From Devosia sp. 1566 (GTDB lineage: Bacteria > Pseudomonadota > Alphaproteobacteria > Rhizobiales > Devosiaceae), in the NCBI RefSeq assembly GCF_004005995.1, contig NZ_CP034767.1, positions 1,736,001-1,800,000 of the forward strand: a stretch of 64,000 bases of DNA. The letters are read 5' to 3'. Positions within the stretch are counted from its first letter, which is position 1. Each line of letters begins with the position of its first letter. This document shows, one piece after another, positions 10,296 through 26,143 of the stretch. Both the position numbers and the translations under genes were made by a program. The notes under the pieces are model-generated. The model ran no database searches, was not told the origin of the DNA, and saw only the letters and a program-made list of their open reading frames with translations.

Positions 10296-10371
10296 TTTGA
10301 TCTTGCGGTTCCAGCGCGGGGGTTAATCGTCGGCGGCGCGAGCTGTCGGCCGTGAGCCTGCTGTGGGATGC

Positions 10372-11172
10372 CTAGCGATGCTCCATGGACATGACTTTAA
10401 GCGTTTCCTCGCGGATGTCGGCGAGGACGTCCCGCTTGAGGGCTGAGAATTCGGGGCTGGTGACGATGTCGTAGCGGCGGGGGCGCTCCAGATCGACCTT
10501 GAGTTCCCGCTTGAGCCGGCCGGGCCGCGACGCCAGAACAACCACCCGGTCAGCCAGGAAGATGGCTTCCTCCACGTCATGGGTGACGAACAGCACGGTG
10601 ACCTTGTGGTCTTCCCATACTTTGAGCAGCAACTCCTGCATCATGCCGCGGGTCTGGGCATCGAGGGCTCCGAACGGCTCGTCCATCAGGAGCAGGGAGG
10701 GCTTGTAAACGAGGGCGCGCGCAATGGCGACACGCTGGCGCATGCCGCCCGAGAGCTGGCGCGGATAGGCCTGCTCGAAGCCGGCGAGCCCCACTTCGGC
10801 GATGAACTGGCGCACCAGTTCAGCTTTTTCGGCCTTGCCCATGCGGCTCTTTTCGAGCGCAAAGAGGATGTTGCCCTCAACGGTCATCCACTCGAAGAGG
10901 CTATAGCCCTGGAACACGAAGCCACGGTCCCGGCCGGGGCCGGTCACCGATTTGCCGTCGATAAGGACATCGCCAAAGGTCGGCTCGGTCAGGCCGCCAA
11001 CCATGTTGAGGAGCGTAGACTTGCCACAGCCCGAGGTGCCGACGATGGAAACGAATTCGTTGGGCGCGACGGTCAGATCGATGCGGTCGATGGCCAGGAA
11101 CTCGTCACCGCCCTCGCCAAAAATCTTGCCGACCGCATCAACGACGATCTTGGGAGTGGATACGGCGCTCAT
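10372..11172 (-). CDS. ABC transporter ATP-binding protein, nitrate/sulfonate/taurine (TauB/SsuB) type
   Basis: Cytoplasmic ATPase of 266 aa. Walker A is GTSGCGKSTLLNM, the Q-loop is GFVFQGYSLFEWMTV, the signature is QLSGGMRQRVAIARAL, Walker B is LLLMDEPFGALDAQTR and the H-switch is VLFVTHDVEEA. The EPFGALDAQTR pattern and the downstream RPGRLKRE segment are typical of the TauB/SsuB/NrtD group. The start overlaps the permease stop (ATGA). It energises the importer whose permease and binding protein lie upstream. Confidence 0.93.
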   Translation of the reverse strand: MSAVSTPKIVVDAVGKIFGEGGDEFLAIDRIDLTVAPNEFVSIVGTSGCGKSTLLNMVGGLTEPTFGDVLIDGKSVTGPGRDRGFVFQGYSLFEWMTVEGNILFALEKSRMGKAEKAELVRQFIAEVGLAGFEQAYPRQLSGGMRQRVAIARALVYKPSLLLMDEPFGALDAQTRGMMQELLLKVWEDHKVTVLFVTHDVEEAIFLADRVVVLASRPGRLKRELKVDLERPRRYDIVTSPEFSALKRDVLADIREETLKVMSMEHR

Positions 11173-12026
11173 CGATTACCCGTCCAGCGGAATAGGGAGC
11201 GGCCCGTGCGTTTGAAGGCGTAGTCCGTCAGCAAGCCGAGCAGGCCGATAAACAGCGTGCCGAAGATGATGGTGTCGGTGGCAAGATAGCGCTGGGCGTC
11301 CATGATGCGGCGGCCAAGGCCGGTTTGGGCGGCAACCAATTCTGCAACCACGAGATAGGTCCAGGTCCAGCCAATGGTGATGCGGCACGTGTCCCAGATG
11401 GCGGGCAGGGCGGCGGGCAGGATGATGCGCCACAGGATCTCGGTATTGGAAAAGCCCAAGGTCTGGCCGGCACGAATGAGGTTGATGTCGATGGTCTTGA
11501 CATTGTCCATCACCATCAGGGCCATCTGGAAAAAGGTCCCGAGGAAAAGGATCAGGATCTTCTGCTCGTCCCCGATGCCGGCCCATAGGATGGTCAGCGG
11601 GATCAGCGCCACGACGGGCATGTAGCGAATGGTCGAGATCAGCGGCTCAAGGGCGCCTTCGAACAGGCGAAAATTGCCCATGAGGATGCCAATCGGAATG
11701 GCCAGCAGCGCCGCACTCAGCCAGCCCACAAGGATGCGGTAGACGCTGACACTGGCGTCCTGAAGGAGAATGCCCGTGCTGATCTGCCGCCAGGCTTCCT
11801 CGAGGATGGCGTAGGGGCTGGGAAGAAAGAGGGGTTTGACGAGGCCCAGCGCCGTGACCGCCCACCACACCAACACCAGCGCAACCGGAACCACAAAGCC
11901 CGCGCCGTTGAAAACGCTGTCTGGAATGGATTGGCGCAGCCGCAACAGGCCGGCGCGGCTGCGGCTCTTGCGGCGATCGGTCCGGCCGGCAGCGGCGGCT
12001 TGGGCGATGCTCGAACTCTTGGGCAT
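11169..12026 (-). CDS. ABC transporter permease, nitrate/sulfonate/taurine type
   Basis: Inner-membrane permease of 285 aa with a basic N-terminal tail (residues 12-30) and six hydrophobic helices. The BPD_transp_1 coupling loop reads AGQTLGFSNTEILWRIILPA, with the EAA-like glycine at the usual place. The following segment ALPAIWDTCRITIGWTWTYL matches TauC/SsuC. It lies between the binding protein and the ATPase on the minus strand, the standard order of this transporter class. Confidence 0.92.
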   Translation of the reverse strand: MPKSSSIAQAAAAGRTDRRKSRSRAGLLRLRQSIPDSVFNGAGFVVPVALVLVWWAVTALGLVKPLFLPSPYAILEEAWRQISTGILLQDASVSVYRILVGWLSAALLAIPIGILMGNFRLFEGALEPLISTIRYMPVVALIPLTILWAGIGDEQKILILFLGTFFQMALMVMDNVKTIDINLIRAGQTLGFSNTEILWRIILPAALPAIWDTCRITIGWTWTYLVVAELVAAQTGLGRRIMDAQRYLATDTIIFGTLFIGLLGLLTDYAFKRTGRSLFRWTGNR

Positions 12027-12080
12027 GCTGGTTCTTGTGATCCGGAGTGAAAGCCGGCGCTTGGGGGCGCCGGCCAGGGA

Positions 12081-13046
12081 TTAGCGGCTGGCGGCCGCGT
12101 TGACCGCCGCAAGGTCGAGGAAGTCTTCCCCGGTCGGCACGGTCTTGACGTCGTTCGGATTGGCCTGCTGCATGATACCGCCGATCTCTTCGACGGTGGC
12201 CTGGAACTCGCCGCCAAGGGCTGCGGCATTTTCAGCGAGGTCATAGAGGTGCACGCCGGCAAAGGCGGTGTTGAATTCCTCGATGGGGCTGCCGACGGCG
12301 TCGGCAATGATCTTGCCGCCTTCTTCCGGGTTGTCGCGCATGAAGGTCACCGCCTGGTCCCAGGCCTTGATGATGCCGACCAGGGCGTCTTGGTTTCCGG
12401 CAATGAAGCTTGCTTCGGCGGCCAGGACGTCACTGATCAGGCCCGGCTTTTCGCCAGCCGTATAGAGCACCTTGAAGTCCGGACCCTGCGCCAGGGCAGC
12501 GGAGATATAGGGCTCATAGGTGACGGCAATGTCCACGCGGCCAGCGATCAGCGCCAGGCCCGCATCAGCGGCCGCCAACGGGACAGCCTCCACATCGGCA
12601 ATGGTAAGGCCGTTAGAGTTAAGCGCGTAGTTGATCAGCAGATCGCTGGTGGAGCCGATCTCATAGGCGACCTTCTTGCCCTTGAGTTCGGCGATCGAGG
12701 CAATGTTGTTGCCCGCCAACACGGCATCCGCCGTCGTCGAGCCGTCCATGATCATGAAACCCTTGAGATCCACGCCGTTGTTGATGTTGAGGATCACGGT
12801 ATTGGTGGCAGCCGAGATGACCTGGATATTGCCGCTGGCTAGTGCTGCCGCCATGTCCTGGTCCCAAGTGAAGTTGATAAGGTCAACTTCGACGCCGTTC
12901 TCTTCAAAAAAGCCCTTTTGGTCGGCAATCCAGAGCGGGCCATAGCCAAGCCAGGGCTGCACGCCGATCTTGATGGCCTCAGCCTGAGCGGGAAGGGCGA
13001 GCGCGGTCAGCGCCAGGCTCGCGAAGGCAATCGATGCAATTTTCAT
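12081..13046 (-). CDS. ABC transporter substrate-binding protein, TauA/NMT1-like
   Basis: Periplasmic receptor of 321 aa. Signal peptide MKIASIAFAS to LPAQAEA precedes IKIGVQPWLGYGPLWIADQK, the classical opening of TauA/SsuA/NrtA-like proteins. Then come GFFEENGVEVDLINF and AVTYEPYISAAL. ATG 13046 is chosen because AAAGGAAA lies 7 nt upstream and the signal peptide begins there. It follows the formamidase-like gene by 60 bp on the same strand, so substrate import and hydrolysis may be linked. The ligand is unknown. Confidence 0.9.
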   Translation of the reverse strand: MKIASIAFASLALTALALPAQAEAIKIGVQPWLGYGPLWIADQKGFFEENGVEVDLINFTWDQDMAAALASGNIQVISAATNTVILNINNGVDLKGFMIMDGSTTADAVLAGNNIASIAELKGKKVAYEIGSTSDLLINYALNSNGLTIADVEAVPLAAADAGLALIAGRVDIAVTYEPYISAALAQGPDFKVLYTAGEKPGLISDVLAAEASFIAGNQDALVGIIKAWDQAVTFMRDNPEEGGKIIADAVGSPIEEFNTAFAGVHLYDLAENAAALGGEFQATVEEIGGIMQQANPNDVKTVPTGEDFLDLAAVNAAASR

Positions 13047-13106
13047 GGGCAATTTCCTTTGGTGACACGCCGGTGAGCAATTCGCCGCATACATGAACGG
13101 ATTAGA

Positions 13107-15065
13107 TCAGCTTGCAAAGTGCAAGAGCAGGTTCGTGGTGATCCTGCCCACATCGTTTTGATCATCGGGGCCGGGCAGGGCGCCAAGGAAACATACGGAA
13201 CTGGCGGAAAAGACGGCCCCGCCAGATGGATGGGGCAGATAGGTCATCTCGGCGAGCCGACGAGCTTCTCGCTCCGGCGAGCCACCTTCATACCACCGGC
13301 CGGGATCGTCGACATAGTCCTCGGAAAAGCCCGAAGCGGTGGCGAGAACCACGATCCCGTCCGGGGTGCCGAGGAGCCAGTTGGTGTTGTCGACCTCGTA
13401 GCCAGCGGCTCCGCCGAGAACCATGCCGGTATCGCCGAAGTTCTCTCCGATCACGCCATCGAACAGCCAGGCGAACGCCTCGTCATGGCTGGCCGGCGCG
13501 CGCGTAAAGGGCAGGGCCTTGCTGAACCCCATCAGGGCGATGCCAACGCCGGTCAGGCTGAACTCGCCCCGGCCCCGGTCGCGCAAATAACCGCCCGGCT
13601 CGTTGGTGAGGGCGAGCGGCATCTCGGCGAGCGGGCCGTCCCAGGTGCGGCCCGGCTGGGTGGGGCCACGGCGCAGCTCCATCAAATTGTCCTTGAAGGC
13701 GACTGCGGCGGCAAAGCCATTGCCCCCCATATAGGCCAGGCGCCCGCCACCGGCCACATAGGTGCGATAGGCTTCTTCCATGGCGACCGAGAGATATTCG
13801 GGGTGGCTGCCGGTGACAACGCCCTTGTAGCGCGCCAGCAGGCCAGCGCCGTCCCGATGCAGATCGTGATCGGTGGTAAGGTCGAAGGCGATGCCGTTGC
13901 GGGCGGCAAAGCGCAGGAAGTGCAGATCGACGGGCAGCAGGTGTGGCGCGCCGCAAAGCGGGTAGACGTAATCGTCGCGCAGGGTGGCCTTTGGCCGCCG
14001 GGTGGATGCAAGGGAAACACCACTCGCGTCCGAGTGATAGTCGTAGAGTGAACGTAGATTGTTGGCGCGGGCGAACGCATGACCACGATCGGTGCCGATC
14101 CATTCGTAGAGATGCGGCGGCAGGAATTCATCGGCATAGGCGAGATAGGTGGCGGTGGGTGCCACAAAGAGCAGCCGAGATTGGGCCTGTTGAGCAGAAA
14201 CAAAGAACGGCAGCCGCTCGATCTCGCCGCCTGCAGTCACCAGTTCAACCGCGTAGACGCCCGATCGTGCATCGGCGGGAATGTCGATGGCGAAGTTTGC
14301 GGACCACTCAAGGCCAGCCATGTCCGTGTCGTGAAAATGGATGGCGTCGTAATGGCTGGGTGTCAGCCGCGGATCAAGGCTCGAGCCGTCCCAACGGGCG
14401 GAGCGGACGCAAAAGGTTGGGTTGTTATGCAGCGTCAACTGCAGGTCGCCCGCGGGAAGTGGCTCTGCGGTGAATAGCGTCGGAAACGTCCAGTTGGCCC
14501 GGTCACTCTCGGTGGTGACGGCGATGTTGGCGAGGCGGCAGTTGAGGGTCGGGAGTGCTTCGCCTGAATCCGAGCAGAAGATCAGCCTTTGAGGTGTCTG
14601 AGCTGCAAGCTCGCAGGACAGCGTGAAAGGGCTGAAGCGATGGAGCGCGGTGATCGCGAGGGTCCCAGCGGCGAACTCGACCTTCAGCCATTGGTTGGTG
14701 GGCAGGGTGCCGATCTGGGTTTCAACGCCTGGAGCCTGGTAGATCAGCCGGTCATTGTCCTCGATGAGAAGCGCGAAGCTGCCGGTGTCGAGCAGCACGC
14801 GCCGACCGGAATTACGGGTGAGCAGGAGCTCGAACGACAGCGCGGTGACTGCGGCCGGGGCCTCGATGCTCAGCCAGGAGCCTTGCGAGAAGCTGCAATG
14901 CTTGACCTCCTGCAAACGCTTGACCGGCCAGTCCAGCTCCGGCAGATCGTCGCGATCAAGAGCACGGATACGGACCGCTTCGACCGGGCTGCGGCTCGAA
15001 CAGGAAACCAGGCGCTGCCGAGCGGCATCGCCGGTCCAGGGTTCGACATAGCCAGTCACGGCCAT
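13107..15065 (-). CDS. N,N-dimethylformamidase large-subunit-like protein
   Basis: About 652 aa. The start TGYVEPWTGDAARQRLVSC resembles the opening of the dimethylformamidase large (beta) subunit. Residues of about 80-200 form a beta-rich, concanavalin-like insert. The C-terminal 400 residues carry the family blocks FVAPTATYLAYADE, NLRSLYDYHSDASG, FDLTTDHDLHRDG, VVTGSHPEYLS and GGRLAYMGGNGF. Dimethylformamidase is an iron enzyme with tyrosine and glutamate ligands, and tyrosine/histidine/glutamate-rich blocks are present, but I cannot assign ligands. No small-subunit gene is next to it. ATG 15065 is preferred to 15092 by family alignment; neither has a strong ribosome-binding site. The actual amide substrate is unknown. 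Confidence 0.8.
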   Translation of the reverse strand: MAVTGYVEPWTGDAARQRLVSCSSRSPVEAVRIRALDRDDLPELDWPVKRLQEVKHCSFSQGSWLSIEAPAAVTALSFELLLTRNSGRRVLLDTGSFALLIEDNDRLIYQAPGVETQIGTLPTNQWLKVEFAAGTLAITALHRFSPFTLSCELAAQTPQRLIFCSDSGEALPTLNCRLANIAVTTESDRANWTFPTLFTAEPLPAGDLQLTLHNNPTFCVRSARWDGSSLDPRLTPSHYDAIHFHDTDMAGLEWSANFAIDIPADARSGVYAVELVTAGGEIERLPFFVSAQQAQSRLLFVAPTATYLAYADEFLPPHLYEWIGTDRGHAFARANNLRSLYDYHSDASGVSLASTRRPKATLRDDYVYPLCGAPHLLPVDLHFLRFAARNGIAFDLTTDHDLHRDGAGLLARYKGVVTGSHPEYLSVAMEEAYRTYVAGGGRLAYMGGNGFAAAVAFKDNLMELRRGPTQPGRTWDGPLAEMPLALTNEPGGYLRDRGRGEFSLTGVGIALMGFSKALPFTRAPASHDEAFAWLFDGVIGENFGDTGMVLGGAAGYEVDNTNWLLGTPDGIVVLATASGFSEDYVDDPGRWYEGGSPEREARRLAEMTYLPHPSGGAVFSASSVCFLGALPGPDDQNDVGRITTNLLLHFAS

Positions 15066-15359
15066 GGCCGCGTGATCAATAGTGCGCCGCATAGGTTGAA
15101 GTCTCGCAGAGGAGCTTGGCTTCTAGAGCACCCAAGACGCGACGCAAAGTCCTGTCTTGCCATCCGTCTGACCCAGGAAGCTTGGTGAAGCCGGAAACAA
15201 GCTTGGGCCCAGCAGGCTCGCGGCAGGGCGGAGCCGATGAGACAGCCATCCAACAGGGCGGGGGCGGTGTATGAATAATTTCAGCACAAAGAGGACTTGC
15301 TAAGAATATTTTCAGCGCTAGGCTTGGTGCCTCCCTCCAGCCTCCTCAAGGACCCGCAA
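15066..15359. promoter_or_regulatory. Divergent intergenic region between the formamidase-like and nucleoside hydrolase genes
   Basis: No gene is visible in this stretch of about 290 bp. It must hold the promoters of the minus-strand formamidase/ABC operon and of the nucleoside hydrolase. TTGCTA (15297-15302) and TAGGCT (15319-15324), 16 bp apart, are a weak candidate promoter for the latter. ATTTCAGC and ATTTTCAGC recur near 15280 and 15307. The TGTAA/TTACA palindromes seen near the RpiR gene are absent here. Confidence 0.35.
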
Positions 15360-16316
15360 GTGACCTCGACCTGCCGCATGATCCTCGACGTTGATACCGG
15401 CATCGACGATGCCATGGCCGTGGTGTTTGCGCTCAATCATCCCGGCATTCAGCTGGAAGCGCTGACCACAACCTACGGCAATATCGATGTGGCTTCCGCC
15501 ACGCGCAACACGCTGCAGCTGCTGGAAGCGGCGGGACGGACCGATATTCCGGTGGCGGCGGGGTGTTCGCGGGCGCTGACGCGGCCGTTTCACAAGCGCG
15601 GCAGCCGCATCCATGGCTCCAATGGGTTGGGCGAAGTGGAACTGCCGCTGCCCACAAGCCAAGCGCGGCCGATCTGGGGGCCAGACCTGATCATTGAGCT
15701 GGTACGGGCCAATCCGGGCGAGTTGACGCTGGTGCCGGTGGGGCCGATGACCAATGTGGCGCAGGCCTTGATGAAGGCGCCTGACATTGCCGAAAAGCTC
15801 AAAGGTCTGGTGCTGATGGGCGGCACGATCTGGCATCCGGGCGTGCCCGGCATCGCCTCGCCGGTGGCCGACGCCAATTTTTTCAATGATCCGGAAGCAG
15901 CGCGGATCGTGTTGCAATCGGGCGCGCCGATCACATTGGTGGGCATGGATGTGACCATGAAAACCAAGCTGACGGCACCGATGATGGACGAAATCGCCGC
16001 GCGCGGCGGCAAGGCGGCCGGGATCACCATGCAGGCGGCGCGGTTCTATCTCGCAGCTTATCAGGCGCAGTATCCGGACATAACTTATTGCGCGCTGCAT
16101 GACCCGCTGGCAGTGGCGGTGGCGCAGGACCCATCGGTGGTGACCATCGAGCCGATGCAGATCGATGTGGAATGCGTCGGGGAGCTGACACGCGGCCAAG
16201 TTATTCCCGATCGCCGCCGCACCGGCACGACGGTGCCCAGTGCCGGAGTGGCCGTGGCGGTGGACAGCGAGCGCTTCGAGGCGCTGTTCTTGGAAACGAT
16301 GGTCGCCGGGGCCTAG
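15360..16316 (+). CDS. Inosine-uridine-preferring nucleoside hydrolase family protein
   Basis: Ribohydrolase of 318 aa that splits the N-glycosidic bond of a nucleoside. The calcium-binding signature LDVDTGIDDAMAV is intact, as are ALTTTYGNIDV, the TLVPVGPMTNVAQAL segment, ADANFFNDPEAA and the late acidic residue in YCALHDPLAVA. GTG 15360 is chosen because AAGGA lies 8 nt upstream and the protein then starts close to the conserved strand; the frame is open back to TTG 15297. It shares a CTAG with the convergent RpiR gene. It probably supplies bases for the deaminase and amidase encoded nearby, which is inference. Confidence 0.92.
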   Translation: MTSTCRMILDVDTGIDDAMAVVFALNHPGIQLEALTTTYGNIDVASATRNTLQLLEAAGRTDIPVAAGCSRALTRPFHKRGSRIHGSNGLGEVELPLPTSQARPIWGPDLIIELVRANPGELTLVPVGPMTNVAQALMKAPDIAEKLKGLVLMGGTIWHPGVPGIASPVADANFFNDPEAARIVLQSGAPITLVGMDVTMKTKLTAPMMDEIAARGGKAAGITMQAARFYLAAYQAQYPDITYCALHDPLAVAVAQDPSVVTIEPMQIDVECVGELTRGQVIPDRRRTGTTVPSAGVAVAVDSERFEALFLETMVAGA

Positions 16317-17218
16317 CGGCTGCGTTCGGGGGCGATGAGCCAGGGATAGGCGAAGTCGGCGAATTTTTCGGCGGCTTGCGTGGCGCCGGGGGAACGGGAG
16401 GCGACCCCGGCTGCGACGGCTTCGAGCAGGGCCAGGATCGCGGTATCGGAAGTGGAGCTGAAGGAGCGGGTGGCGCGCACATAAAGCGTCAGCGTGCCAA
16501 GGCTCGCCAGGGGCGAAGTCTGCTGATCGGTGATGGCGAGAATGGGGATGCCGCGGCGCTGCACGGTGCGGGTGATTTCCACGGTGTCGCGCATATAGCG
16601 CGGGAAGGCGATCGAGACCACGAGGTCCTTTTTGGTGAAACGCGAAAGATTGCGGGCCGCCGAAAGCGTGCCCCCGCCATTATCGATCATGCGCACCGGC
16701 CGGTCGGCGAGTTCCAGGCGATGGGCAAAGACATTGCCGAGGGCGGCGGCATTGTCGAAGGCGAGGATGAAAATGTTCTCGGCCCCGAGGATCATCTCCA
16801 CGGCCTGCTCGGCGCTGGCAGTATCGAGATTGCGCATCGTCTGGGTGAGGTTGTCGATGTCCTGCTCGATGGAGGCAGCGATCACATCGCGCAGACTCGA
16901 CTTTTCCGAGAGCTTGGTGCGCAGGCGCTCCACTGGGGCAAACACCGATTCAAAACCCTGCACCACTTCGGCGCGAAACTGCGCATAGCCCTCAAAGCCC
17001 AAGGAACGGGCAAACCGGTTGGCGGTAGCGACGGAAACGCCCGAGGCGGTGACCGTGTCGTTGATGCTCATCTGCGCCACCTGCATAGGCTCGGACAGCA
17101 CGAAATCGGCGAAGGAACGCAAGGCTGGCGACAAACCTGGATAAGCCCTGGCGATGCGCTGGGCGACTTCGGAATCGGCAGGCAAATAGCCAAATGATGA
17201 AGTTTTAGGCAGGTTCAA
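16313..17218 (-). CDS. RpiR/MurR-family transcriptional regulator (HTH plus SIS domain)
   Basis: About 301 aa. The N-terminal HTH_6 domain contains SINDTVTASGVSVATANRFA and RSLGFEGYAQFR. The C-terminal SIS sugar-phosphate-binding domain runs from about residue 120, with FILAFDNAAALGNVFAHRLE and DLVVSIAFPRYMRDTVE. A TTG at about 17218 with GGAGG 6 nt upstream is the likely start. A longer frame reaches ATG 17323, but it would run through the two palindromes at 17239-17287. It is divergent from the large ABC/catabolic operon and convergent with the nucleoside hydrolase, so it is probably the local regulator, sensing a phosphorylated sugar such as a ribose derivative. Confidence 0.9.
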   Translation of the reverse strand: MNLPKTSSFGYLPADSEVAQRIARAYPGLSPALRSFADFVLSEPMQVAQMSINDTVTASGVSVATANRFARSLGFEGYAQFRAEVVQGFESVFAPVERLRTKLSEKSSLRDVIAASIEQDIDNLTQTMRNLDTASAEQAVEMILGAENIFILAFDNAAALGNVFAHRLELADRPVRMIDNGGGTLSAARNLSRFTKKDLVVSIAFPRYMRDTVEITRTVQRRGIPILAITDQQTSPLASLGTLTLYVRATRSFSSTSDTAILALLEAVAAGVASRSPGATQAAEKFADFAYPWLIAPERSR

Positions 17219-17238
17219 TTTTTGCCTCCGAATGCTAT

Positions 17239-17254
17239 TGTAATCAAAATTACA
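17239..17254. promoter_or_regulatory. Palindromic operator, candidate RpiR-family site 1
   Basis: TGTAAT-CAAA-ATTACA, a perfect 6-bp inverted repeat with a 4-bp spacer, just upstream of the RpiR-family start. The RpiR-family regulator HexR is known to bind TGTAAT/ATTACA-type palindromes, so this is a good candidate for autoregulation. Binding by this particular protein is inference. Confidence 0.65.
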
Positions 17255-17266
17255 TATGCTAGCGTA

Positions 17267-17287
17267 GCTGTAACAACGGATTACAGC
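17267..17287. promoter_or_regulatory. Palindromic operator, candidate RpiR-family site 2
   Basis: GCTGTAA-CAACGGA-TTACAGC, a perfect 7-bp inverted repeat with a 7-bp spacer, 12 bp from site 1 and sharing its TGTAA/TTACA arms. Together the two sites fill the divergent region between the regulator and the binding-protein operon, where one protein could control both directions. Confidence 0.6.
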
Positions 17288-17351
17288 CAGCGCTTTTGCG
17301 GCCGTAAACGCCAAGCTTCGCATGTGTGGACAGCAGCAAGGAGCCGTGCCG

Positions 17352-18386
17352 ATGGGGTTTTCGCGCTATTTACAACCGAGTCGGCGGCAGGTGTTGCTGG
17401 CCGGGATTGCCGGTCTGGGATTGAGCCTGCTGCCGCGAGGGGCCTGGGCGCAGGGAACGGGTAAGACCGCAATCACCCAAGCCTTCGGCTGGATCTCCAA
17501 TGTGGAATATGCCGGCTTCTGGACGGCGCTTGAGCAGGGCTATTTCGCCGAGGAAGGGATCGAGGCGGACTTCCTGGCTGGCGGCCCCAACGCCCCCGAT
17601 GTGCTGGTCTCGCTCGCAGCTGACAGCGCCCAGATCAGCAATGCCAACTGGCTGCCGGTGCTCGATGCTATCGAAAAGGGCAATGACTTCGTGGTGCTCG
17701 GCGCCATGTGGCAAAAGAGCCCCGCGGCCCTGATATCGCTGGCAGCCAAGCCCGTGCGCGAGGCCAAGGATCTGGTGGGGGCGCGGATCCTCGCGCAGAA
17801 CCCCACAGACAAGCTGATCATCGACGCCATTCTGGGCAATGCCGGACTGCCGCTGGACTATGAGATCATGCCGACCGGGTTTTCGCCCGAGCCGCTCCTG
17901 TCGGGCGATGGCGATGTGTATTTCGCCTTTGCGACCAATCAGCCGATCACGCTGGAAAATCTGGGCCTGGTGCAGGGCACCGATTTTTTCGTGACGCTGA
18001 TGGATGACCTTGGCTACCAGGTCAAGCAGGCGCTGATGGTGACCAAGAAGTCGTTTCTGGCCGAGAACCGGCCGGCGATGGTGGGCTATATCAGGGCGCT
18101 GATCCGCGGCTGGGATTATGCCTTTGCCAATCCCCAATATGCGCCAGAGATCGTAGTGGACAAATATGGCGCCGATCTGGGGCTCGACCTCGCCCAGCAG
18201 CAGCGCCAGATGGAGCTGCAGATCCCGCTGATCAAGCCGGACGGCGAGGGCAAGCTGTTCTGGTTCGACCCCGCGGTGATCGAGGGGGCGATGACGGATG
18301 CAGCAGTGGCGGCGGGCCGCAAAGTGCCGCCCCTTGCCGAGCTGGTGGATATGAGCGTGCTCGAAGAAGCGCACGCCACGCTCTGA
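17352..18386 (+). CDS. NMT1/THI5-like ABC substrate-binding protein 1
   Basis: Periplasmic binding protein of 344 aa. The leader has a twin-arginine-like motif SRRQVLLAG followed by a hydrophobic stretch and GAWAQ, so Tat export is possible. The mature protein begins with AFGWISNVEYAGFWTALEQG and YFAEEGIEADFLAGGPNAPD, like pyrimidine-precursor and nitrate-type receptors, but lacks the CCCFGFCG motif of yeast THI5. ATG 17352 has AAGGAG 8 nt upstream. It is first gene of the operon and about half identical to the next gene. The ligand is unknown; a nucleobase or pyrimidine-like compound is inferred from the enzymes downstream. Confidence 0.88.
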   Translation: MGFSRYLQPSRRQVLLAGIAGLGLSLLPRGAWAQGTGKTAITQAFGWISNVEYAGFWTALEQGYFAEEGIEADFLAGGPNAPDVLVSLAADSAQISNANWLPVLDAIEKGNDFVVLGAMWQKSPAALISLAAKPVREAKDLVGARILAQNPTDKLIIDAILGNAGLPLDYEIMPTGFSPEPLLSGDGDVYFAFATNQPITLENLGLVQGTDFFVTLMDDLGYQVKQALMVTKKSFLAENRPAMVGYIRALIRGWDYAFANPQYAPEIVVDKYGADLGLDLAQQQRQMELQIPLIKPDGEGKLFWFDPAVIEGAMTDAAVAAGRKVPPLAELVDMSVLEEAHATL

Positions 18387-18482
18387 GTTTCTGAGAGCCT
18401 CCCCATCTCTTGGTTCCATCCCGCGCCGTGGCGGGGTGGCTGGTTCAACGCGCCCATGCGCAGCCCTTTGGAGTGTGCCGAT

Positions 18483-19502
18483 ATGCTGAGACGCCAACTG
18501 CTTGCATCCGCTGCCGGGGGTCTGTTGGCCTCGGCCTTGTTGCCGCGCTTTGCCATGGCGCAGGCGAGCACGCCGTTGCGCGTGCAACTCGGCTGGATCG
18601 CCAATGTGGAATATGGCGACCACTGGATTGCGCTGGAAAATGGGTTGTTCAGCCAGGCGGGGCTGGATGTGACGGTGAGCCCGGGCGGGCCCAATGCACC
18701 CGATCCGTTGACCCTGATTGCGGCGGGCAATGCCGAGATCGGTTACACCAGCTGGCTGCCATTTCTGGATGCGGTGGGGCGCGGCAATGATTTCGTGCTG
18801 ATCACAGCGCGCCAGCAGACTTCGCCCTTGGGGATCATTTCGCTGGCGGCCAAGCCGATTTTAACGGCCCAAGACATTGTGGGTTCGCGGATCTTGGCGC
18901 AGGGCCCGGCGGAAGAAACCGCCATCCAGGCGACGTTGGGCTTGGCGGGGCTCGACCCGGAGAGCTGGACCATGGTGCCCGCCGGGTTTTCGCCCGAGCC
19001 GCTGGTGGCAGGGGATGGCGAGGGTTACACCGCCTTTGCGGTGAACCAGACCATTACGCTCGAAAACATGGGCCTGGTGCCAGAGAAGGACTTCTTTTTC
19101 CGCTCCTTTGATCAACTGGGCTTTCCCTCCTATGCGGGGCTGGGCTTTGTGTCGCGGGCGTTTCTCGAGGCCAACCGGCCGGCGATCGTGGCCTATCTCG
19201 CTGCATTGATGCAGGCGTTCCAGGTCAATGAGGCGGATCTGACGCTGGCGCCCAAGCTGGCGGTGGAGAAATACGGCGCCGATTTCGGGCTCGAATTGGC
19301 CCAGCAGACCCGACAGAACGAGCTGCAGCTTCCCTTTATGCGACCGGGCGGCGATCCGGCTTATCCGGTCTACGGGCTCGACAAGGCCAAGATGGCGGGC
19401 CCGATGTATGACGCGGCACGCGCAACCGGGCGCACCGAACTCCCCCCCATTGACGATATCGTCGACACCAGCCTCGCCCAGGAAGCGCTGGCTTCGCTCT
19501 GA
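18483..19502 (+). CDS. NMT1/THI5-like ABC substrate-binding protein 2 (tandem paralogue)
   Basis: Periplasmic receptor of 339 aa, clearly a duplicate of its neighbour: LGWIANVEYGDHWIALENG, GGPNAPDPLTLIAAGNAEIG, GFSPEPLVAGDGEGY and NQTITLENMGLV align without gaps to the first copy. The leader MLRRQLLASAAGG to FAMAQ also begins with a paired arginine. The pocket-lining stretch differs (SWLPFLDAVGRGNDFVLIT versus NWLPVLDAIEKGNDFVVLG), suggesting a second ligand. ATG 18483 is preceded by TTTGGAG. Both receptors probably feed the one permease/ATPase set downstream. Confidence 0.88.
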   Translation: MLRRQLLASAAGGLLASALLPRFAMAQASTPLRVQLGWIANVEYGDHWIALENGLFSQAGLDVTVSPGGPNAPDPLTLIAAGNAEIGYTSWLPFLDAVGRGNDFVLITARQQTSPLGIISLAAKPILTAQDIVGSRILAQGPAEETAIQATLGLAGLDPESWTMVPAGFSPEPLVAGDGEGYTAFAVNQTITLENMGLVPEKDFFFRSFDQLGFPSYAGLGFVSRAFLEANRPAIVAYLAALMQAFQVNEADLTLAPKLAVEKYGADFGLELAQQTRQNELQLPFMRPGGDPAYPVYGLDKAKMAGPMYDAARATGRTELPPIDDIVDTSLAQEALASL

Positions 19503-19528
19503 CCTGTTTATCCCAAGGAGATCACCCC

Positions 19529-20937
19529 ATGACCCCAGACAACTTCACCACCAAGGGCGAGCCGCAGCTGGTGGATGTGGTGGTGACCGGCGCCGAGATC
19601 GTGACCCTCGATGCCGAAAATCGGGTGATCAGCGATGGCACGATCGCGGTGGATGGGGGGCGGATCGTCTTTTTGGGTGAGGGGGAAGGGGGGCGAGCCT
19701 ATCGGGGGCGCACCACCATCGATGCACGAGGGCGGATCGCCATGCCCGGGCTGATCGATGCGCATTTCCATACCGGGCAGCAATTGCTGCGAGGAAAGCT
19801 GCAGGCGATTGCCAGGAAGCGTCCACTCAAGCTGCCGGTGTGGAAGAACTACCTGATCCCGTTCGAGAGCTGCCTCGAGCCCGAGGATGTGTATTTGTCG
19901 GGGCTCGTCGCCTACACCAACATGATCCAGGTCGGCACGACCTGTTTCGCGGAAGCGGGCGGACCGCATCCCGACGAGATGGGACGGGCGGCCATGGATG
20001 TGGGCATCCGGGGTTTCGTGTCGCTGTCGACGGTGAACCAAAGTGAAAACATCGGCGCGGAAGTGCCGGCCAATATGTTGATGACGCATGACCAGGCGCT
20101 GGAGCGCAATGTGGCGCTGGTGGAGCGCTGGCAGAGCAATGAGCGGGTGAAGGCCTGGCTGAGCCTGCGGCAGGTGATCGTGTGCTCGCCCGAGTTGATC
20201 CGCGATATCTCGCAGGCTTCGCGGGACCTGGCGGTGAAGATCCATACCCATTTGTGTGAGGGCAGCTATGAGATCGACTATACGCTCGAAAAATTCGGGC
20301 TGCGGCCGACCGAGTGGCTCGAGACCATGCAGGTGCTGGACCACAACCTGCATTGCGCCCATTCGGTGCTGCTCTCGCCCAAGGAAGTTGATCTTTACGA
20401 AAAGTACCAGCTCTCGGCCTGTCATTGCGGCTTCAACAATTATTCCATCGGCCATCCCCGGCTGATCGAAATGTGGAAGCGCGGCATCGCCATCGGGCTG
20501 GGCACGGACGGGCCGGGTTCGGCGGGGACGCTCGATCTGTTCCAGGTGGCGCATGTGGCGCGCGTGGGTCAGCAGGCGGTCAATTCAGCCGTGTTCCACC
20601 AGCGCGAGCCGATTTCCTCCGAAGAACTGCTGCGGATCGCGACGCATGGCGGGGCGCGGGCGCTGGGGATCTTCGATGAGGTGGGGAGCCTCGAAGTGGG
20701 CAAAAAGGCCGACCTCCTGCTTTGCGACACCTCGCATATGGATCATGCGCCGATCTATGACCCGCTGTTTGTTGCGGCTTCGATCCTGGTCGGCCGGGAC
20801 GTGGAAACGGTTGTTGTGGATGGCAAGGTGGTGATGCAGGACCGCGCCATGCTGGGGATCGACCAGGAAGCGATCCGCGCCAAGCTCAAGGAGCGCCTGC
20901 CAGTGATTTCGGAACGGTTCGAGCGGCTGGTGGCGTG

Positions 20938-20938
<1 letters not shown>
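19529..20938 (+). CDS. Amidohydrolase-superfamily deaminase/chlorohydrolase-like metalloenzyme
   Basis: Cytoplasmic metal-dependent hydrolase of 469 aa in the TrzN/AtzA/guanine-deaminase/S-adenosylhomocysteine-deaminase group. The first metal ligands are His79 and His81 in MPGLIDAHFHTG. Later ligands are in KIHTHLCEGSYEID and LHCAHSVLLSPKEVD, and the final aspartate is in IGLGTDGPGSAG. The C-terminal strand ADLLLCDTS follows the usual GKKADLL pattern. AAGGAG precedes ATG 19529 by 7 nt. Its stop overlaps the ATPase start (TGATG). It probably removes an amino or similar group from an imported ring compound; the substrate is not determinable here. Confidence 0.9.
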
Positions 20939-21728
<790 letters not shown>

Positions 21729-21729
<1 letters not shown>

Positions 21730-22487
21730 TGCGCATCTCGATGGAAAAGCTGCAGTCGATCGTGCTGGGCGCCGTCGGCATCCTGCTGTTCCTGAGCCTC
21801 TGGGAAGTAATCGGGGTTAACCGGTTGGCAGGGCTGACTTGGCCGCCGCTGAGTACGGTCCTCGTGTTCATGTTTGATCCCTCGCGCCAAGCGCTGTTTT
21901 TGCGCGCCATGGCGGCGAGCTTTTCCATGGTGGCGGCGGGCTATGCGCTAGGGACGCTGATCGGCGTTCTGACCGCAGGGCTCGTGCATGTGGTGCCGGT
22001 GTTGCGGCCGGGTCTCGACCGGCTCGCCGGGGTGATCCACGCCATTCCCGCCATTGCGCTGGCGCCCTTGTTTATCGTGCTGCTCGACCGGGAACTGACC
22101 GGGATGGCGATCGCAACGCTCAATGTGTTCTTTGTGCTTTATGTCGCGACCACATCGGGACTGGCCAATTCCACGGTGACGCACCGGGACCTCTTCCAGG
22201 TGCTGGGCTCCTCGCCATTGACGCGCCTATTGCGCCTCGATTTGCCTGCCGCACTACCGGCTATGGTGAGTGGGCTGAAATTTGCCATTCCTGCCGCTTT
22301 CATCGGCGCGATCCTCGGCGAATGGTTTGGCTCCTCGCGCGGGCTGGGGCTGCTCATGGTCAGCGCGATGCAGAACTTCCAGATCCCGCTCCTGTGGAGC
22401 GCGGTATTTATTGCCTCGGCGGCTTCGCTTCTGGCTTTTGGAGCGATGAGCCTGCTCGAGCGCTTTGTTTATGGGCGATACGCATGA
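21729..22487 (+). CDS. ABC transporter permease (SsuC-like), subunit 1
   Basis: Inner-membrane permease of 252 aa with six hydrophobic helices. The cytoplasmic coupling loop is QVLGSSPLTRLLRLDLPAAL, followed by GLKFAIPAAFIGAILGEWFG. It overlaps both neighbours by a few bases. Most transporters of this class use one permease gene as a homodimer; here two different permeases follow each other, so a heterodimer is likely. Confidence 0.92.
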
Positions 22488-23257
22488 GCACATCAGCGAA
22501 ACGAAGCTTTGGCTCTACCCTGCGTATCGGCCTCTCGCGCTACTGGGGCGTCCTGGCGGTGTTGTTGGCTTGGCAGGCCTGGGTGTCGATCTCGGGCGTC
22601 AACGCCATTGTCATGCCCCAGCCCATCAATGTGCTGACAGATCTGGTCACCAATCCGATGGTGTACATCACCAATGGCGGGCAAACCCTGATACTTGCCG
22701 CCCTGGGGCTGGTGCTGGGCATGTTCCTGGGCACGATTGTTGCGGTGCTGGCCTGGACCTCGCGGCTGCTGAACGGGATCCTCGTGCCATTGGGGCTGAT
22801 CTTTTCTTCGGTGCCCGTAGTGGCGCTGATCCCGGTGCTGGCGCGCCTCCTCGGCTATGACCTCAAAACCGTGCTCGCCATTGTGGTGATCATCTCGTTT
22901 TTCCCGGCCTTTGTGTTCACCTCGGCCGGGCTCAAGGCACTGCCGCCCGGGAGCGATGATCTGTTCAAGGTCCTCGGGGCTTCGCGTCTGACGCGGTTTT
23001 TCCACCTGGTGCTGCCTTCGGCCGTGCCCAACTGGATGATCGCGCTGCGCCTGGCCGCGCCGCCCTCAGTGCTGTCGGCCATGGTGGCCGAATTCCTGAT
23101 GGGCTCGAGCGGGCTTGGCTACCTGTTCCGCTCGGCGGCCAGTGATTTCCAGACGGAGCGGGCCTTTGGCACCAGTGTCGTGGCCACCGTGATTTCGGTG
23201 CTGTGCTTTACCGCGGCCCTTGGGGCAGAGCGGCGCGTCAACAACAGATGGAAGTGA
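22484..23257 (+). CDS. ABC transporter permease (SsuC-like), subunit 2
   Basis: Inner-membrane permease of 257 aa with six helices. Its coupling loop KVLGASRLTRFFHLVLPSAV and the segment IALRLAAPPSVLSAMVAEFL match the same family as subunit 1 but the proteins are well diverged. ATG 22484 overlaps the upstream stop (ATGA). AVPNWMIAL shows the usual pattern after the coupling helix. Likely partner of the preceding permease. Confidence 0.92.
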   Translation: MSTSAKRSFGSTLRIGLSRYWGVLAVLLAWQAWVSISGVNAIVMPQPINVLTDLVTNPMVYITNGGQTLILAALGLVLGMFLGTIVAVLAWTSRLLNGILVPLGLIFSSVPVVALIPVLARLLGYDLKTVLAIVVIISFFPAFVFTSAGLKALPPGSDDLFKVLGASRLTRFFHLVLPSAVPNWMIALRLAAPPSVLSAMVAEFLMGSSGLGYLFRSAASDFQTERAFGTSVVATVISVLCFTAALGAERRVNNRWK

Positions 23258-23262
23258 GCGCA

Positions 23263-23565
23263 ATGAACGAAGATCTCGAACATCTCATCCCCGCCATCGC
23301 CACGGTGCAGGTGGACAATGAGCGGGTCAGGGCCACCCGCTACCACTTTGCGCCGGGATCGGAGACCGGCTGGCACAAGCATGGCCATGACTATGTTGTC
23401 GTGCCCACACTGGCTGGAACGCTGACCATCGTGGAACTCGATGGCAGCCGGCGCGAGGTCGCCTACCAGGTGGGGGAAAGCTATGGGCGAGTGCTGGGGG
23501 CCGAGCACAACGTGGTCAACCTTTCCGACAGCCCCGTCGAATTTGTTGAAATCGAACTGAAATAG
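23263..23565 (+). CDS. Small single-domain cupin
   Basis: Protein of 100 aa forming one cupin barrel. Motif 1 is HFAPGSETGWHKHGHDYVVV, with the metal-binding histidines and a tyrosine where glutamate often stands. Motif 2 is weak (GAEHNVVNLSDSP), with one histidine. It could be a metal-dependent isomerase or dioxygenase, or a ligand-binding accessory protein. It sits 6 bp after the permease and 11 bp before the RarA-C-like gene, so it belongs to the operon. Confidence 0.85.
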   Translation: MNEDLEHLIPAIATVQVDNERVRATRYHFAPGSETGWHKHGHDYVVVPTLAGTLTIVELDGSRREVAYQVGESYGRVLGAEHNVVNLSDSPVEFVEIELK

Positions 23566-23576
23566 GTTGTTTGCCG

Positions 23577-24158
23577 ATGTCCAAAGTCACCTTGCCTCCT
23601 GATCCCTGGCAGAACGTCAAGACCCAGCACGGCATCCCTGCCGATGAGGTGATCTCGGGCCTGCAGAAATGCCTCCGGCGCGGCATGGCTGAGACGGCAC
23701 TCCTGCTGGCCTATGAGATGTATGTGACCAGCCCCGAGATGGAGGAAATGCTGTGGTCGCGCTTGTGCGTGATCGCAGTGGAGGATGTGGGGGCGGGCAA
23801 TCTGAACCTGCCGGTGCTGGTGGATACGCTTTATCGCACCCATCAGCGCTATCCGCGTCCGATCGGCGACAGGTTTCTATTTGCCGCCCATGCCATCCGG
23901 CTGATCGCCGAAAGCCCCAAGGACCGCACCACCGACGACATGGTCAATTTCGCGCGGCTGGAAAACGTCGTGCGCAACAAGGCGCCCGAAGTGCCCGACT
24001 TCGCCATCGACATGCATACCAAGCGCGGCTGGGAAATGGGCCGCGGCTACGAGCATTTCATGACTGAAGCGTCGCGCGTCGAGAACCGGATCGAAACCGG
24101 CGACACCTCTTATCGCGACCGCATCATGGCAGCCATTGCGGCGGGCGAGTTGTCCTGA
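23577..24158 (+). CDS. Stand-alone protein resembling the C-terminal domain of RarA/MgsA
   Basis: Helical protein of 193 aa. SGLQKCLRRGMAETALLLAY followed by LWSRLCVIAVEDVGAGN resembles the RarA/WRNIP1 C-terminal tetramerisation domain (DPDAALYWLARM, RRLVIxASEDIGxAD), and the end GWEMGRGYEHFM matches its GxGYKYPHDF-type tail. No AAA+ ATPase part is present, so it is not a recombination ATPase. Its place inside a transport/catabolism operon suggests an enzyme or scaffold role in base metabolism that has not, to my knowledge, been assigned. ATG 23577 is preferred over TTG 23571. Confidence 0.65.
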   Translation: MSKVTLPPDPWQNVKTQHGIPADEVISGLQKCLRRGMAETALLLAYEMYVTSPEMEEMLWSRLCVIAVEDVGAGNLNLPVLVDTLYRTHQRYPRPIGDRFLFAAHAIRLIAESPKDRTTDDMVNFARLENVVRNKAPEVPDFAIDMHTKRGWEMGRGYEHFMTEASRVENRIETGDTSYRDRIMAAIAAGELS

Positions 24159-24167
24159 GGGCGCGAC

Positions 24168-24743
24168 ATGAAAACGGTTTACCTGGCCGGCCCCGAGGTG
24201 TTTTTTCCGGACGGGGCAGCAATCACCGCGGCCAAACGCGAGCTGACCCGCAGCTATGGCTTTGTGCCCCAAATCTGGAACGAGGAGCGGGACTGGCCCA
24301 GCGACAAGTTCGAGATCGGTGTGTTCATCGCTCGGGGCAATGAAGCGGTGATGAGCGGCAGCGACTTCATTATCGCCAACATGACCCCGTTCCGGGGCAT
24401 CAGCGCCGATGTGGGCACGGCCTATGAAATCGGCTTCATGTGCGCGCAAGGCAAGCCCGCCTTTGGCTACACCAATGATGGCAGGTTTTATGGGCAGCGC
24501 GCCGCCGAAGATTTCTACGGCGGCAAGGTGGCGCCGGATGCCAAGGGCGTGACCCGCGGGCCGGACGGGCAGATGGTGGAAGACCATGCCATGTCCGACA
24601 ATCTGATGCTGGATGGGGGCATGCATTTGCGCGGCGGGCTAGTGGCGCGGCCGCCGGCAGGCACGGTGCTGCCCTTTGGCAATCTCAGCGTGTTTGAGGC
24701 GTGCCTGGCGGCCGCCAAGCGCTTTTTCGGGACGGCTAGCTGA
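24168..24743 (+). CDS. Nucleoside 2-deoxyribosyltransferase-family protein
   Basis: Protein of 191 aa. The fold opening VYLAGPEVFFPDG, the central NMTPFRGISADVGTAYEIGF with the conserved Asp and Glu, and the late MSDNLMLDGGMHLRGG are typical of the PF05014 family. Members exchange the base of deoxynucleosides or hydrolyse N-glycosidic bonds of nucleotides. The combination with a nucleoside hydrolase, deaminase and amidase is the main reason to call this region a nucleoside-type module. ATG 24168 lies 9 bp after the previous stop, and its stop overlaps the amidase start (TGATG). Confidence 0.88.
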   Translation: MKTVYLAGPEVFFPDGAAITAAKRELTRSYGFVPQIWNEERDWPSDKFEIGVFIARGNEAVMSGSDFIIANMTPFRGISADVGTAYEIGFMCAQGKPAFGYTNDGRFYGQRAAEDFYGGKVAPDAKGVTRGPDGQMVEDHAMSDNLMLDGGMHLRGGLVARPPAGTVLPFGNLSVFEACLAAAKRFFGTAS

Positions 24744-26143
24744 TGGCGCCTGATGCCACGGCGCTGAGCGCGGAGCTGGCCACAGGTCGGGTATCGGCGG
24801 TGGAGTTGGTGGAGCAGAGCATTGCCGCCATCAAGGCTGGCGATGGCGTGCTCAATGCCGTGGTGGTGCGCGACTTCGAGCGGGCGCGGGCCGCGGCTGA
24901 GCAGGCCGACCGGTGCCTCGCAGCGGGCGAGCGGCTGCCGCTGCTGGGCGTGCCGATCACCATCAAGGAAAGCTTTGATGTGGAGGGGCTGCCCACCAGC
25001 TGGGGGCTGGAGGCTTTTCGCGGCGCGGTGGCGCGCGAGGACGCGGTAGCGGTGGCCCGGCTGCGCGCCGCCGGCGCGGTGATCCTCGGAAAAACCAACG
25101 TGTCCCAGGGCTTGGATGGCTGGAATGCCGATAACCCGGTTTATGGCCGGACGGGCAATCCGGTGCGGGCAGGGTTGTCGCCGGGCGGTTCGTCTTCGGG
25201 GGCAGCGGCGGCGGTGTCGGCGGGTTATGTGCCGCTCGATATCGGCTCTGATCTGGGGGGCTCCATCCGCGGGCCGGCGCAGTTTTGCGGCATCTGGGGC
25301 CATGTGGCGAGCATGGGGCTGATCCCCTTGCGCGGGCATGCGCTGGCTGGGCGCAAGGCGCGGTTCGACCTTTCCTGTCCGGGGCCACTGGCGCGGAGCG
25401 CGCGGGATCTTGAGTTGGGGCTCACGGTCATGGCGGGGCCCGATGCCGATGAGGCAGTGGGATATACGCTGACGCTGCCGCCGCCAAGGGTGGAGAAACT
25501 AAGCGAGTTGCGGGTCCTGGTGCTGGAGGAGCATCCGATGGTGCCCACCGACCCCGAAGTGCGGGCAGGGGTGGCGCTGGCGGCGGAACTGCTCGGGCGG
25601 GCAGGGGCGAAGGTGCGGCGCGCCGAGGGCGTGATGCCCGATGTGGAGGAGGCGACGCAGATTTATCTGCGGCTGCTTGGGGGCGCGGTGGCGCTGGGGC
25701 AGACGGCGGAACAGTTGGCGGCGGCACGCGAAGAACTCCGGGGGCTTGATCCTGGGAGTATGGCGGCGTGGCGCATCGGCGGCATGGTGGCGAGCCATGC
25801 CGAATGGATCGAGGCCAATGAAGCGCGGGTAAAGCTGCGCTGGGCCTGGCAGGAGGTATTTCGCGATTGGGATGCGCTGATCTGCCCGCCCATGTCTGTG
25901 GCGGCGCTTGGGGAAGCGGAAGCCGCGGCGCCGAGCGTGTTGGTGGATGGCGTTGCCATGGAGCGGGGCGACAGCGTGGCCTGGACGGCGCTGGGAAATG
26001 GCGCGGCGCTGCCGGCCACGGTGATGCCGATAGGGCGCATGCGCGACGGCCGGTCCACCGGCATCCAGATCATCGGGCCTTATTTGGAAGATCGCACCAC
26101 GATCGCCATCGCAGGACTGCTGGACGTCGCGCATTGTCGGTAA
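24743..26143 (+). CDS. Amidase-signature-family hydrolase (AtzE/GatA-like)
   Basis: Amidase of 466 aa with the Ser-cisSer-Lys triad: Lys75 in GVPITIKESFD, the cis serine in SPGGSSSGAAAA (around 150) and the nucleophile Ser174 in GSDLGGSIRGPAQ. A final block MPIGRMRDGRSTGIQIIGP is the usual C-terminal motif. It cleaves an amide or carbamoyl bond, perhaps on a ring-opened product. It is not the tRNA amidotransferase subunit, since no gatB/gatC is adjacent. Last gene of the operon that begins at 17352. Confidence 0.9.
   Translation: MAPDATALSAELATGRVSAVELVEQSIAAIKAGDGVLNAVVVRDFERARAAAEQADRCLAAGERLPLLGVPITIKESFDVEGLPTSWGLEAFRGAVAREDAVAVARLRAAGAVILGKTNVSQGLDGWNADNPVYGRTGNPVRAGLSPGGSSSGAAAAVSAGYVPLDIGSDLGGSIRGPAQFCGIWGHVASMGLIPLRGHALAGRKARFDLSCPGPLARSARDLELGLTVMAGPDADEAVGYTLTLPPPRVEKLSELRVLVLEEHPMVPTDPEVRAGVALAAELLGRAGAKVRRAEGVMPDVEEATQIYLRLLGGAVALGQTAEQLAAAREELRGLDPGSMAAWRIGGMVASHAEWIEANEARVKLRWAWQEVFRDWDALICPPMSVAALGEAEAAAPSVLVDGVAMERGDSVAWTALGNGAALPATVMPIGRMRDGRSTGIQIIGPYLEDRTTIAIAGLLDVAHCR

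Follow-up and report, generated by a model that had tools for sequence, protein, structure and literature searches.

What do the products of a compact group of genes in Devosia sp. 1566 take up and break down? The group encodes, side by side, a nucleoside hydrolase (NH), an ABC importer with two NMT1-type receptors, a nucleoside 2-deoxyribosyltransferase-family protein (NDT) and further hydrolases. It lies in what we call the window, i.e., the whole 64,000-nucleotide stretch analyzed here (positions 1736001-1800000 of the complete 4.17 Mb chromosome), in which Pfam and NCBIfam scans delimited a module of twelve genes at approximately 15327-26143. We conclude that this module probably serves the uptake and catabolism of nucleosides. 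It represents a nucleoside module in a new gene combination, and its novelty rests on a widely conserved component, RarC, a stand-alone relative of the C-terminal domain of RarA/MgsA.

An earlier sequence-only reading had listed these families together in one region, and the scans bore this out: matches above the Pfam cut-offs were obtained for IU_nuc_hydro, SIS plus HTH_6, NMT1 (twice), Amidohydro_1, ABC_tran, BPD_transp_1 (twice), Cupin_2, Nuc_deoxyrib_tr and Amidase. The same reading held that all genes other than those for NH and the RpiR-family regulator form one tightly overlapping operon. This was exact from the amidohydrolase onward, where successive gaps are -4, -1, -4, +5, +11, +9 and -1 nt, but spacing is looser at the receptors (69 nt between receptors a and b, 26 nt between receptor b and the amidohydrolase). 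The plus-strand operon contains ten genes, from receptor a to the amidase. The NH gene (plus strand) converges on the RpiR gene (minus strand) with an overlap of 4 nt, and the latter diverges from the operon.

All twelve genes, in the same order, were found in four further genomes (loci and genomes carry our L and G numbers): G006 (L014), a Rhizobiales bacterium (L036), Devosia riboflavina (L037) and Pelagibacterium xiamenense (L039), with protein identities of 58-85%. L116, L131 and L132 are repeat entries of full-set loci and were not counted again, so that the total with the window is five genomes. All four other full-set loci have a short-chain dehydrogenase gene between the amidohydrolase and the ATPase (cluster c18; by Pfam for L037), which the window lacks. 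In Faunimonas (L040, identical with L117), cupin and RarC are separated by a gluconolactonase-like gene (by Pfam of another cluster member), and neither NH nor amidase was present in the stretch read. A smaller version, in which RpiR faces NMT1-ABC-permease-permease-RarC-NDT, occurs in Devosia, Martelella, Pleomorphomonas, Rhizobium and three Rhodobacterales. Because the full set recurs in order and sub-sets recur in other arrangements, the genes are not a chance gathering; the set is real.

The rearranged sub-modules are informative. On the Agrobacterium plasmid pAt15955, RpiR, one NMT1 receptor, the amidohydrolase (69% identical), the ATPase and two permeases occur without the rest, and Microvirga has the same sub-module, with an amidohydrolase 63% identical. 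In G421 (L118), an overlapping NH and NDT pair behind RpiR faces NMT1-amidohydrolase-ABC-permease-permease-PfkB kinase, with no RarC. G326 carries RpiR, two NMT1 genes, ABC, RarC and NDT at one locus (L161) and NDT-amidase-NH at a second (L162; identities with the window's proteins of 56%, 59% and 34%, respectively), while in G237 (L167) an adenine-deaminase-like gene immediately precedes NDT. Through these arrangements, NDT, NH, amidase, deaminase and importer are linked more firmly than they would be by one operon alone.

Among 75 genomes of the genus, RarC was found in 23 (E 1e-20), NDT in 11 (E 1e-3) and the AHase21 amidohydrolase in four (E 1e-120), all four of which carry RarC and NDT as well. 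RarC was present in ten of the 11 NDT genomes (P 1.2e-5 assuming independent genomes, which they are not), and in the eleventh (G435) tblastn shows a RarC-like stretch adjoining NDT. At the order level the amidohydrolase occurred in 4/397 genomes and NDT in 31/397 (E 1e-35), and at the class level the amidohydrolase occurred in 3/385, the window's genome being included each time. Among viral contigs, NDT gave three pattern stretches and no relative. Two of the 11 NDT copies in the genus are broken, with one stop in G435 and a stop plus truncation in G014 (loci L123, L129 and L059, the last being Devosia soli), so that the module seems to be decaying in some relatives.

The catalytic residues of the two nucleoside-cleaving families are intact. 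In NH, the Asp-rich DxDxxxDD metal motif is preserved, and D21, D23, D27, D28, N184 and D259 are invariant in 37/37 family rows. In NDT, D81, G83, T84, E87, N145, L146 and M147 are invariant in 22/22 rows; they include the Glu of the GTxxE motif, which is the catalytic residue of nucleoside 2-deoxyribosyltransferases. The window's protein shares this active-site motif with the PF05014 enzymes but is longer (about 190 residues, against 156-161 in solved relatives), and it may act as a hydrolase. A nucleoside pathway is thus well supported by gene context and by the motifs retained in NH and NDT. The sequence-only reading had proposed a full pathway of glycosidic cleavage, ring deamination or dehalogenation, and amide cleavage. 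This interpretation is partly supported; dehalogenation fits poorly with companions that are nucleoside genes.

The amidohydrolase keeps the metal-site residues H79, H81, H239, H241, H278 and D327 in 19/19 rows, which places it in the COG0402 type, and E244 in 8/8 AHase21 rows. Its model (pLDDT 90.2) has 4f0s and 4dzh as nearest structures and is nearest to adenosine-type deaminases, although sequence comparison puts AtzA (144.3 bits) at the head of the solved relatives, level with 4f0r, and TrzN is also listed. E113, conserved in 18/19 rows, aligned with a Glu of 4f0r, a position occupied by Gln in AtzA and by Trp in 3hpa, an 8-oxoguanine-deaminase-like amidohydrolase. In TM0936 the equivalent Glu contacts the ribose hydroxyls, a role that E113 may share; a literature search gave no paper on it. 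In keeping the metal ligands and E113, and in its nearest structures, the protein resembles the deaminases acting on 5'-deoxyadenosine, methylthioadenosine (MTA) and adenosine, but it is only about 25% identical to them. The equivalog model PRK07228 (5'-deoxyadenosine deaminase) is its best NCBIfam match, but the score of 246.6 bits falls far short of the cut-off of 522. The amidase contains the signature motifs IKE (at 74), GGSSS (at 148) and GSDLGGS (at 168); the catalytic triad of this family is Ser-cisSer-Lys. H43, H45 and H87 of the cupin (numbered from 23248) are invariant in 7/7 rows.

Receptor a has ThiY (3ix1) as its best solved relative (E 1.4e-9), and THI13-type pyrimidine proteins are also close. 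NMT1-type receptors serve thiamin pyrimidines, sulfonates and similar ligands. Both receptors of the window begin with a twin-arginine-like signal in translation (SRRQVLL and LRRQLLA, respectively). The ThiXYZ/formylaminopyrimidine importer of thiamin salvage has a receptor of this family too, but over the 64 kb nothing in Rfam, TPP riboswitches included, reached the gathering score, and no thiamin-synthesis family was found among the genes scanned. Thiamin salvage was rejected on these grounds.

Between the RpiR gene and the first receptor gene lies a candidate operator, TGTAATCAAAATTACA. The pattern TGTAATN{2,6}ATTACA occurs only once in the genome, at this site. The RpiR gene itself stays beside the NMT1-ABC genes in L014, L036, L037, L039-L041, L047-L050 and others. 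A looser repeat was found in or near the same gap in 7/27 other loci (L039/L116, L040/L117, L041, L026 and probably L058); because 20 of the 28 loci scanned have no such site, the repeat is no more than a candidate RpiR operator.

The analysis establishes which genes are present and in what order, their conservation, the integrity of catalytic motifs and the recurrence of the association; from these we infer reactions, ligands and regulation as follows. The ligand, a (deoxy)nucleoside or a nucleobase-like compound, would be bound by the two receptors and passed to the ABC importer. Once inside the cell, the nucleoside or base would lose an amino group to the amidohydrolase, and deoxyribo- and ribonucleosides would be split at the N-glycosidic bond by the NDT-family enzyme and NH. 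Least certain is the role of the amidase, which may cut an amide in a base that is acylated or whose ring has been opened. The operon is probably under the control of RpiR, which may act through the inverted repeat and respond to a pentose or pentose phosphate, and RarC would most likely act on, or sense, the sugar product.

Several observations weigh against a nucleoside pathway. ThiY, the closest solved relative of receptor a, binds a pyrimidine, and the amidohydrolase has AtzA as its top solved relative by sequence, level with 4f0r; in structural comparisons with its model, the Z scores of isocytosine deaminase and AtzA are no more than 4 units below that of 4f0s. NH lies outside the operon, with no operator-like repeat ahead of it, and the repeat is missing from L014, L036 and L037, three of the four other full-set loci. 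In the stretch read of L026, L027, L170 and L171, an NMT1 receptor, AHase21 and ABC genes occur without NDT, RarC and NH, and the NDT loci L165, L166, L168 and L169 show no such neighbors.

Alternatively, the module might salvage free bases, the receptors binding a pyrimidine or purine in the manner of ThiY, the amidohydrolase deaminating it, and the amidase opening or trimming the product, with NH and NDT serving other substrates. The structures nearest to receptor a (ThiY and the THI13-type proteins) are consistent with this, and the isocytosine deaminase Vcz and 3hpa align with the amidohydrolase almost as well as do adenosine-type deaminases. However, the smallest version of the module has NDT and RarC as its sole non-transport, non-regulatory genes, E113 is retained in nearly all rows, and the window has no match to a TPP riboswitch or anything else in Rfam at the gathering score; we therefore regard base salvage as unlikely. 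A role in breaking down a pollutant, whether triazine-like or another nitrogen heterocycle, is suggested by the AtzA score and the listing of TrzN but is very improbable, because identity to these enzymes (24-27%, 27% for AtzA) does not exceed that to deaminases, they match the model less well in structure, and the companion genes across loci are nucleoside genes. AtzA has Gln in place of E113, and no triazine companions were seen.

We turn now to RarC. The protein has 193 residues, and its sole Pfam match, MgsA_C, scores 26.5 bits, just below the curated cut-off of 27. A profile built from 14 members matches RarA C-terminal structures with E values of 2.4e-11 and weaker (six distinct sequences up to E 1), so the label of RarA-C-like protein used in the sequence-only reading is right. 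In the model (pLDDT 95.0), residues 12-138 share the MgsA_C fold of the RarA C-terminal domain, and the fold-match list (VIA) for these residues is headed by RarA and clamp-loader domains; the lack of an enzyme fold on that list is not evidence against an enzyme. Because RarC has no ATPase domain, and because the same genome encodes a full RarA elsewhere, RarC is not RarA. In 45 sequences (44 of the 80 loci described below, plus the window), 29 residues are invariant, 21 of them charged or polar, and the genome's own RarA retains 13 of the 29 positions in the alignment. D145 and H147 are also kept in Enterococcus RarA (2r9g), so that the clearest marks of RarC are R35, W60, R117, D120 and T148, which do not vary within the family, whereas the genome's own RarA has other residues there. 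RarC thus shares a fold with the RarA/MgsA (WRNIP1) family, but lacks the AAA+ domain and differs from the genome's RarA at these five positions.

Three phage proteins, from Arthrobacter phage Kitkat, Microbacterium phage ClearAsMud and one faecal phage contig, keep all five marks and are therefore RarC-like (59 phage records had a match, of which these three were aligned). Two such genes (L156:6938-7657 and L157:6986-7606) are annotated as ATPase or AAA-ATPase, and their products are too short to contain an AAA+ domain. In ClearAsMud the RarC-like gene is preceded by a UDP-glucose dehydrogenase gene and, before that, a glycosyltransferase gene.

We then examined the neighborhoods of the best 80 of 208 RarC relatives, with genes called by codon score. 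At least one member of a nucleoside set, defined as NH, Bmp, NDT, AHase21 and the adenine-deaminase-like and cytidine-deaminase-like genes, lay within 8 kb of RarC in 54/80 loci (46/69 after removal of near-copies), compared with 0/20 control stretches, a contrast tempered by the facts that the nucleoside-set HMMs were built from the same loci and that the controls were fixed positions in same-genus genomes, not matched by phylum. An importer gene lay within 600 bp on the same strand as RarC in 36/80 loci, and RarC was frequently the first gene after the last permease.

Four contexts recur. In context A (Devosia and kin), RarC forms part of an island of cytidine-deaminase-like, creatininase-like, adenine-deaminase-like, LacI, GATase1_like, RarC and ribokinase-like genes, flanked by a Bmp importer, NH and an amidohydrolase. 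The island is conserved in L053, L061, L071, L072, L076 and others, and GATase1_like immediately precedes RarC in 17/80 loci; the GATase1_like protein of L076 had no NCBIfam match. In context B (mostly Chloroflexota, with one actinobacterium and two Alphaproteobacteria), a Bmp importer lies near RarC without GATase1_like; among its 15 loci (in one of which, L107, RarC adjoins a PTS gene), NH is within reach in 12 and AHase3 in 11, and L101 has a PNP_UDP_1 gene. Within the AHase3 group (e.g., L053:3123-4472 and L110:8604-9929), the position of E244 is occupied by T, C or A in eight of the ten aligned, with the metal site kept; judging from these residues, its reaction may differ from ordinary deamination. 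In context C (Bacillota, and Fusobacteriota and Enterococcus plasmids), RarC precedes a PTS IIC gene and mostly faces an SIS/RpiR gene; L107 has Lac-family IIA, IIB and IIC genes. Context D is that of the window. Other importers also occur: an RbsB-like importer with a molybdenum hydroxylase subunit in L043, and an SBP_bac_1-type ABC importer in Subdoligranulum (L034).

On a quick tree of RarC from 79 of the 80 loci plus the window (L084, with a 45-residue open reading frame, was omitted), there are at least five switches of importer type (NMT1, Bmp or PTS; 61 labeled rows). With finer labels (A, B, C, D and N) the count was eight, but L107 was mislabeled B, and L068 and L086 (B) resemble A, so we used the importer-only count.

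The association has exceptions. Outside the nucleoside and importer classes fall 22/80 loci, although other evidence places nucleoside or importer genes in L042, L043, L080 and L094, and several of the 22 are short contigs. L070, L073 and L078 (Kaistia and Mesorhizobium) share an unrelated context, with ferritin-like and rRNA-methylase-like genes in L073. A deep 11-row clade comprises Bacillota, Latescibacterota, Gemmatimonadota and two Chloroflexota; it has PTS genes in four loci, PhyH in L100 and L103 (the latter with a lactone-oxidase-like gene), and a UxuA-like gene near RarC in L104, while the neighbors in L102, L115 and two Erysipelotrichaceae are uninformative. Because the neighbors in this clade are sugar-type or uninformative, and because a sugar moiety is what the importers share with one another and with the RpiR and LacI regulators, we propose that the target of RarC, as an enzyme or a sensor, is the sugar half of the substrate.

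Our proposal, which is tentative and could well be wrong, is that RarC represents an undescribed family of enzymes or cytosolic sensors of nucleoside and sugar catabolism. Built on the fold of the RarA C-terminal domain, these proteins would target the sugar portion of nucleosides or glycosides brought into the cell. On this view, recruitment next to importers of unrelated types would have happened repeatedly, across five phyla (Pseudomonadota, Chloroflexota, Actinomycetota, Bacillota and Fusobacteriota), and the conserved pocket of the RarA C-terminal domain might likewise bind a small ligand. RarC might instead be a passenger, scaffold or regulator of unrelated function, as its RarA-like fold and the unclassed loci would allow; this seems rather unlikely, given the same-strand importer genes close to RarC in 36 loci, the repeated switches of importer type on the tree, and the 29 invariant residues, fewer than half of which survive in the genome's own RarA. 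It is quite improbable that RarC serves the importer as an accessory subunit instead of being an enzyme or sensor of the imported compound: it often directly follows the last permease, but it is found with NMT1-ABC, Bmp-ABC, RbsB-like ABC, SBP_bac_1-type ABC and Lac-family PTS systems alike.

Among systems of known kind, the module comes closest to nucleoside salvage by NH and ribokinase with BMP-family nucleoside ABC importers. In relatives, NH, a deaminase-like protein, a ribokinase-like kinase and an importer are likewise encoded in one neighborhood, but the window has an NMT1-type importer, NDT, an amidase, a cupin and RarC, with no kinase in the operon. If our interpretation is true, the module encodes a nucleoside pathway that relies on an importer of the NMT1 type, and a family whose members are currently named "hypothetical protein" or "AAA-ATPase" gains a genomic function. 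RarC is small, well conserved and often found beside genes that suggest a substrate, so its activity is directly testable, and that activity could also explain conserved residues in the RarA C-terminal domain.

Table 1. Genes and candidate regulatory site of the module, in window coordinates
Feature	Position	Strand	Basis and remarks
Nucleoside hydrolase (NH)	15327..16316	+	IU_nuc_hydro, 299.6 bits (cut-off 34.2); start uncertain, 15327 or 15378
RpiR-family regulator	16313..17122	-	Pfam HTH_6 + SIS; start uncertain, longest open reading frame to 17323
Candidate RpiR operator, inverted repeat TGTAAT-4-ATTACA	17239..17254		Weaker copy at 17269-17285
NMT1-like substrate-binding protein a	17352..18386	+	Pfam NMT1, 104.8 bits; longest open reading frame from 17322
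NMT1-like substrate-binding protein b	18483..19502	+	Pfam NMT1, 78.0 bits; longest open reading frame from 18456
Amidohydrolase AHase21, COG0402 / adenosine-MTA deaminase and AtzA type	19529..20938	+	Pfam Amidohydro_1; NCBIfam
ABC importer ATPase	20935..21729	+	Pfam ABC_tran
ABC importer permease 1	21729..22487	+	Pfam BPD_transp_1
ABC importer permease 2	22484..23257	+	Pfam BPD_transp_1; start by coding score
Small cupin	23263..23565	+	Pfam Cupin_2
RarC, stand-alone relative of RarA/MgsA C-terminal domain, without AAA+ motor	23577..24158	+	Profile, invariant residues, model
Nucleoside 2-deoxyribosyltransferase-family protein (NDT)	24168..24743	+	Pfam PF05014, 88.7 bits (cut-off 28.8)
Amidase-signature hydrolase	24743..26143	+	Pfam Amidase; NCBIfam PRK06170, 518.9 bits (cut-off 503)

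The presence of the full set in Devosia riboflavina raised the possibility of riboflavin catabolism. In the portions available of PMC12934955 and PMC12746152, that process is described as cleavage by the monooxygenase RcaE together with lumichrome clusters; it was ruled out for the module on gene content, RcaE itself not having been searched for. A literature search on the gene set or on stand-alone MgsA_C proteins yielded PMC9870897, which, in the part available, was not relevant.

On the minus strand at 9618-15092, back to back with NH, the window contains a second importer module, encoding an N,N-dimethylformamidase-beta-like protein (PF20254), an NMT1 receptor, a permease, an ATPase and an HAD hydrolase. 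No DMFA2 or NMT1_c match was found beside the nucleoside module in L014, L036, L037 or L039. Predictions of Sigma-70 promoters (no sites, with 2.4 expected by shuffling) and of terminators (12 found, with 9.1 expected) were uninformative. The G+C content of the module (63.5%) is close to that of the window without it and the DMFA2 module (61.7%), so that there is no sign of recent import; despite this unremarkable composition, the module is patchy within the genus.

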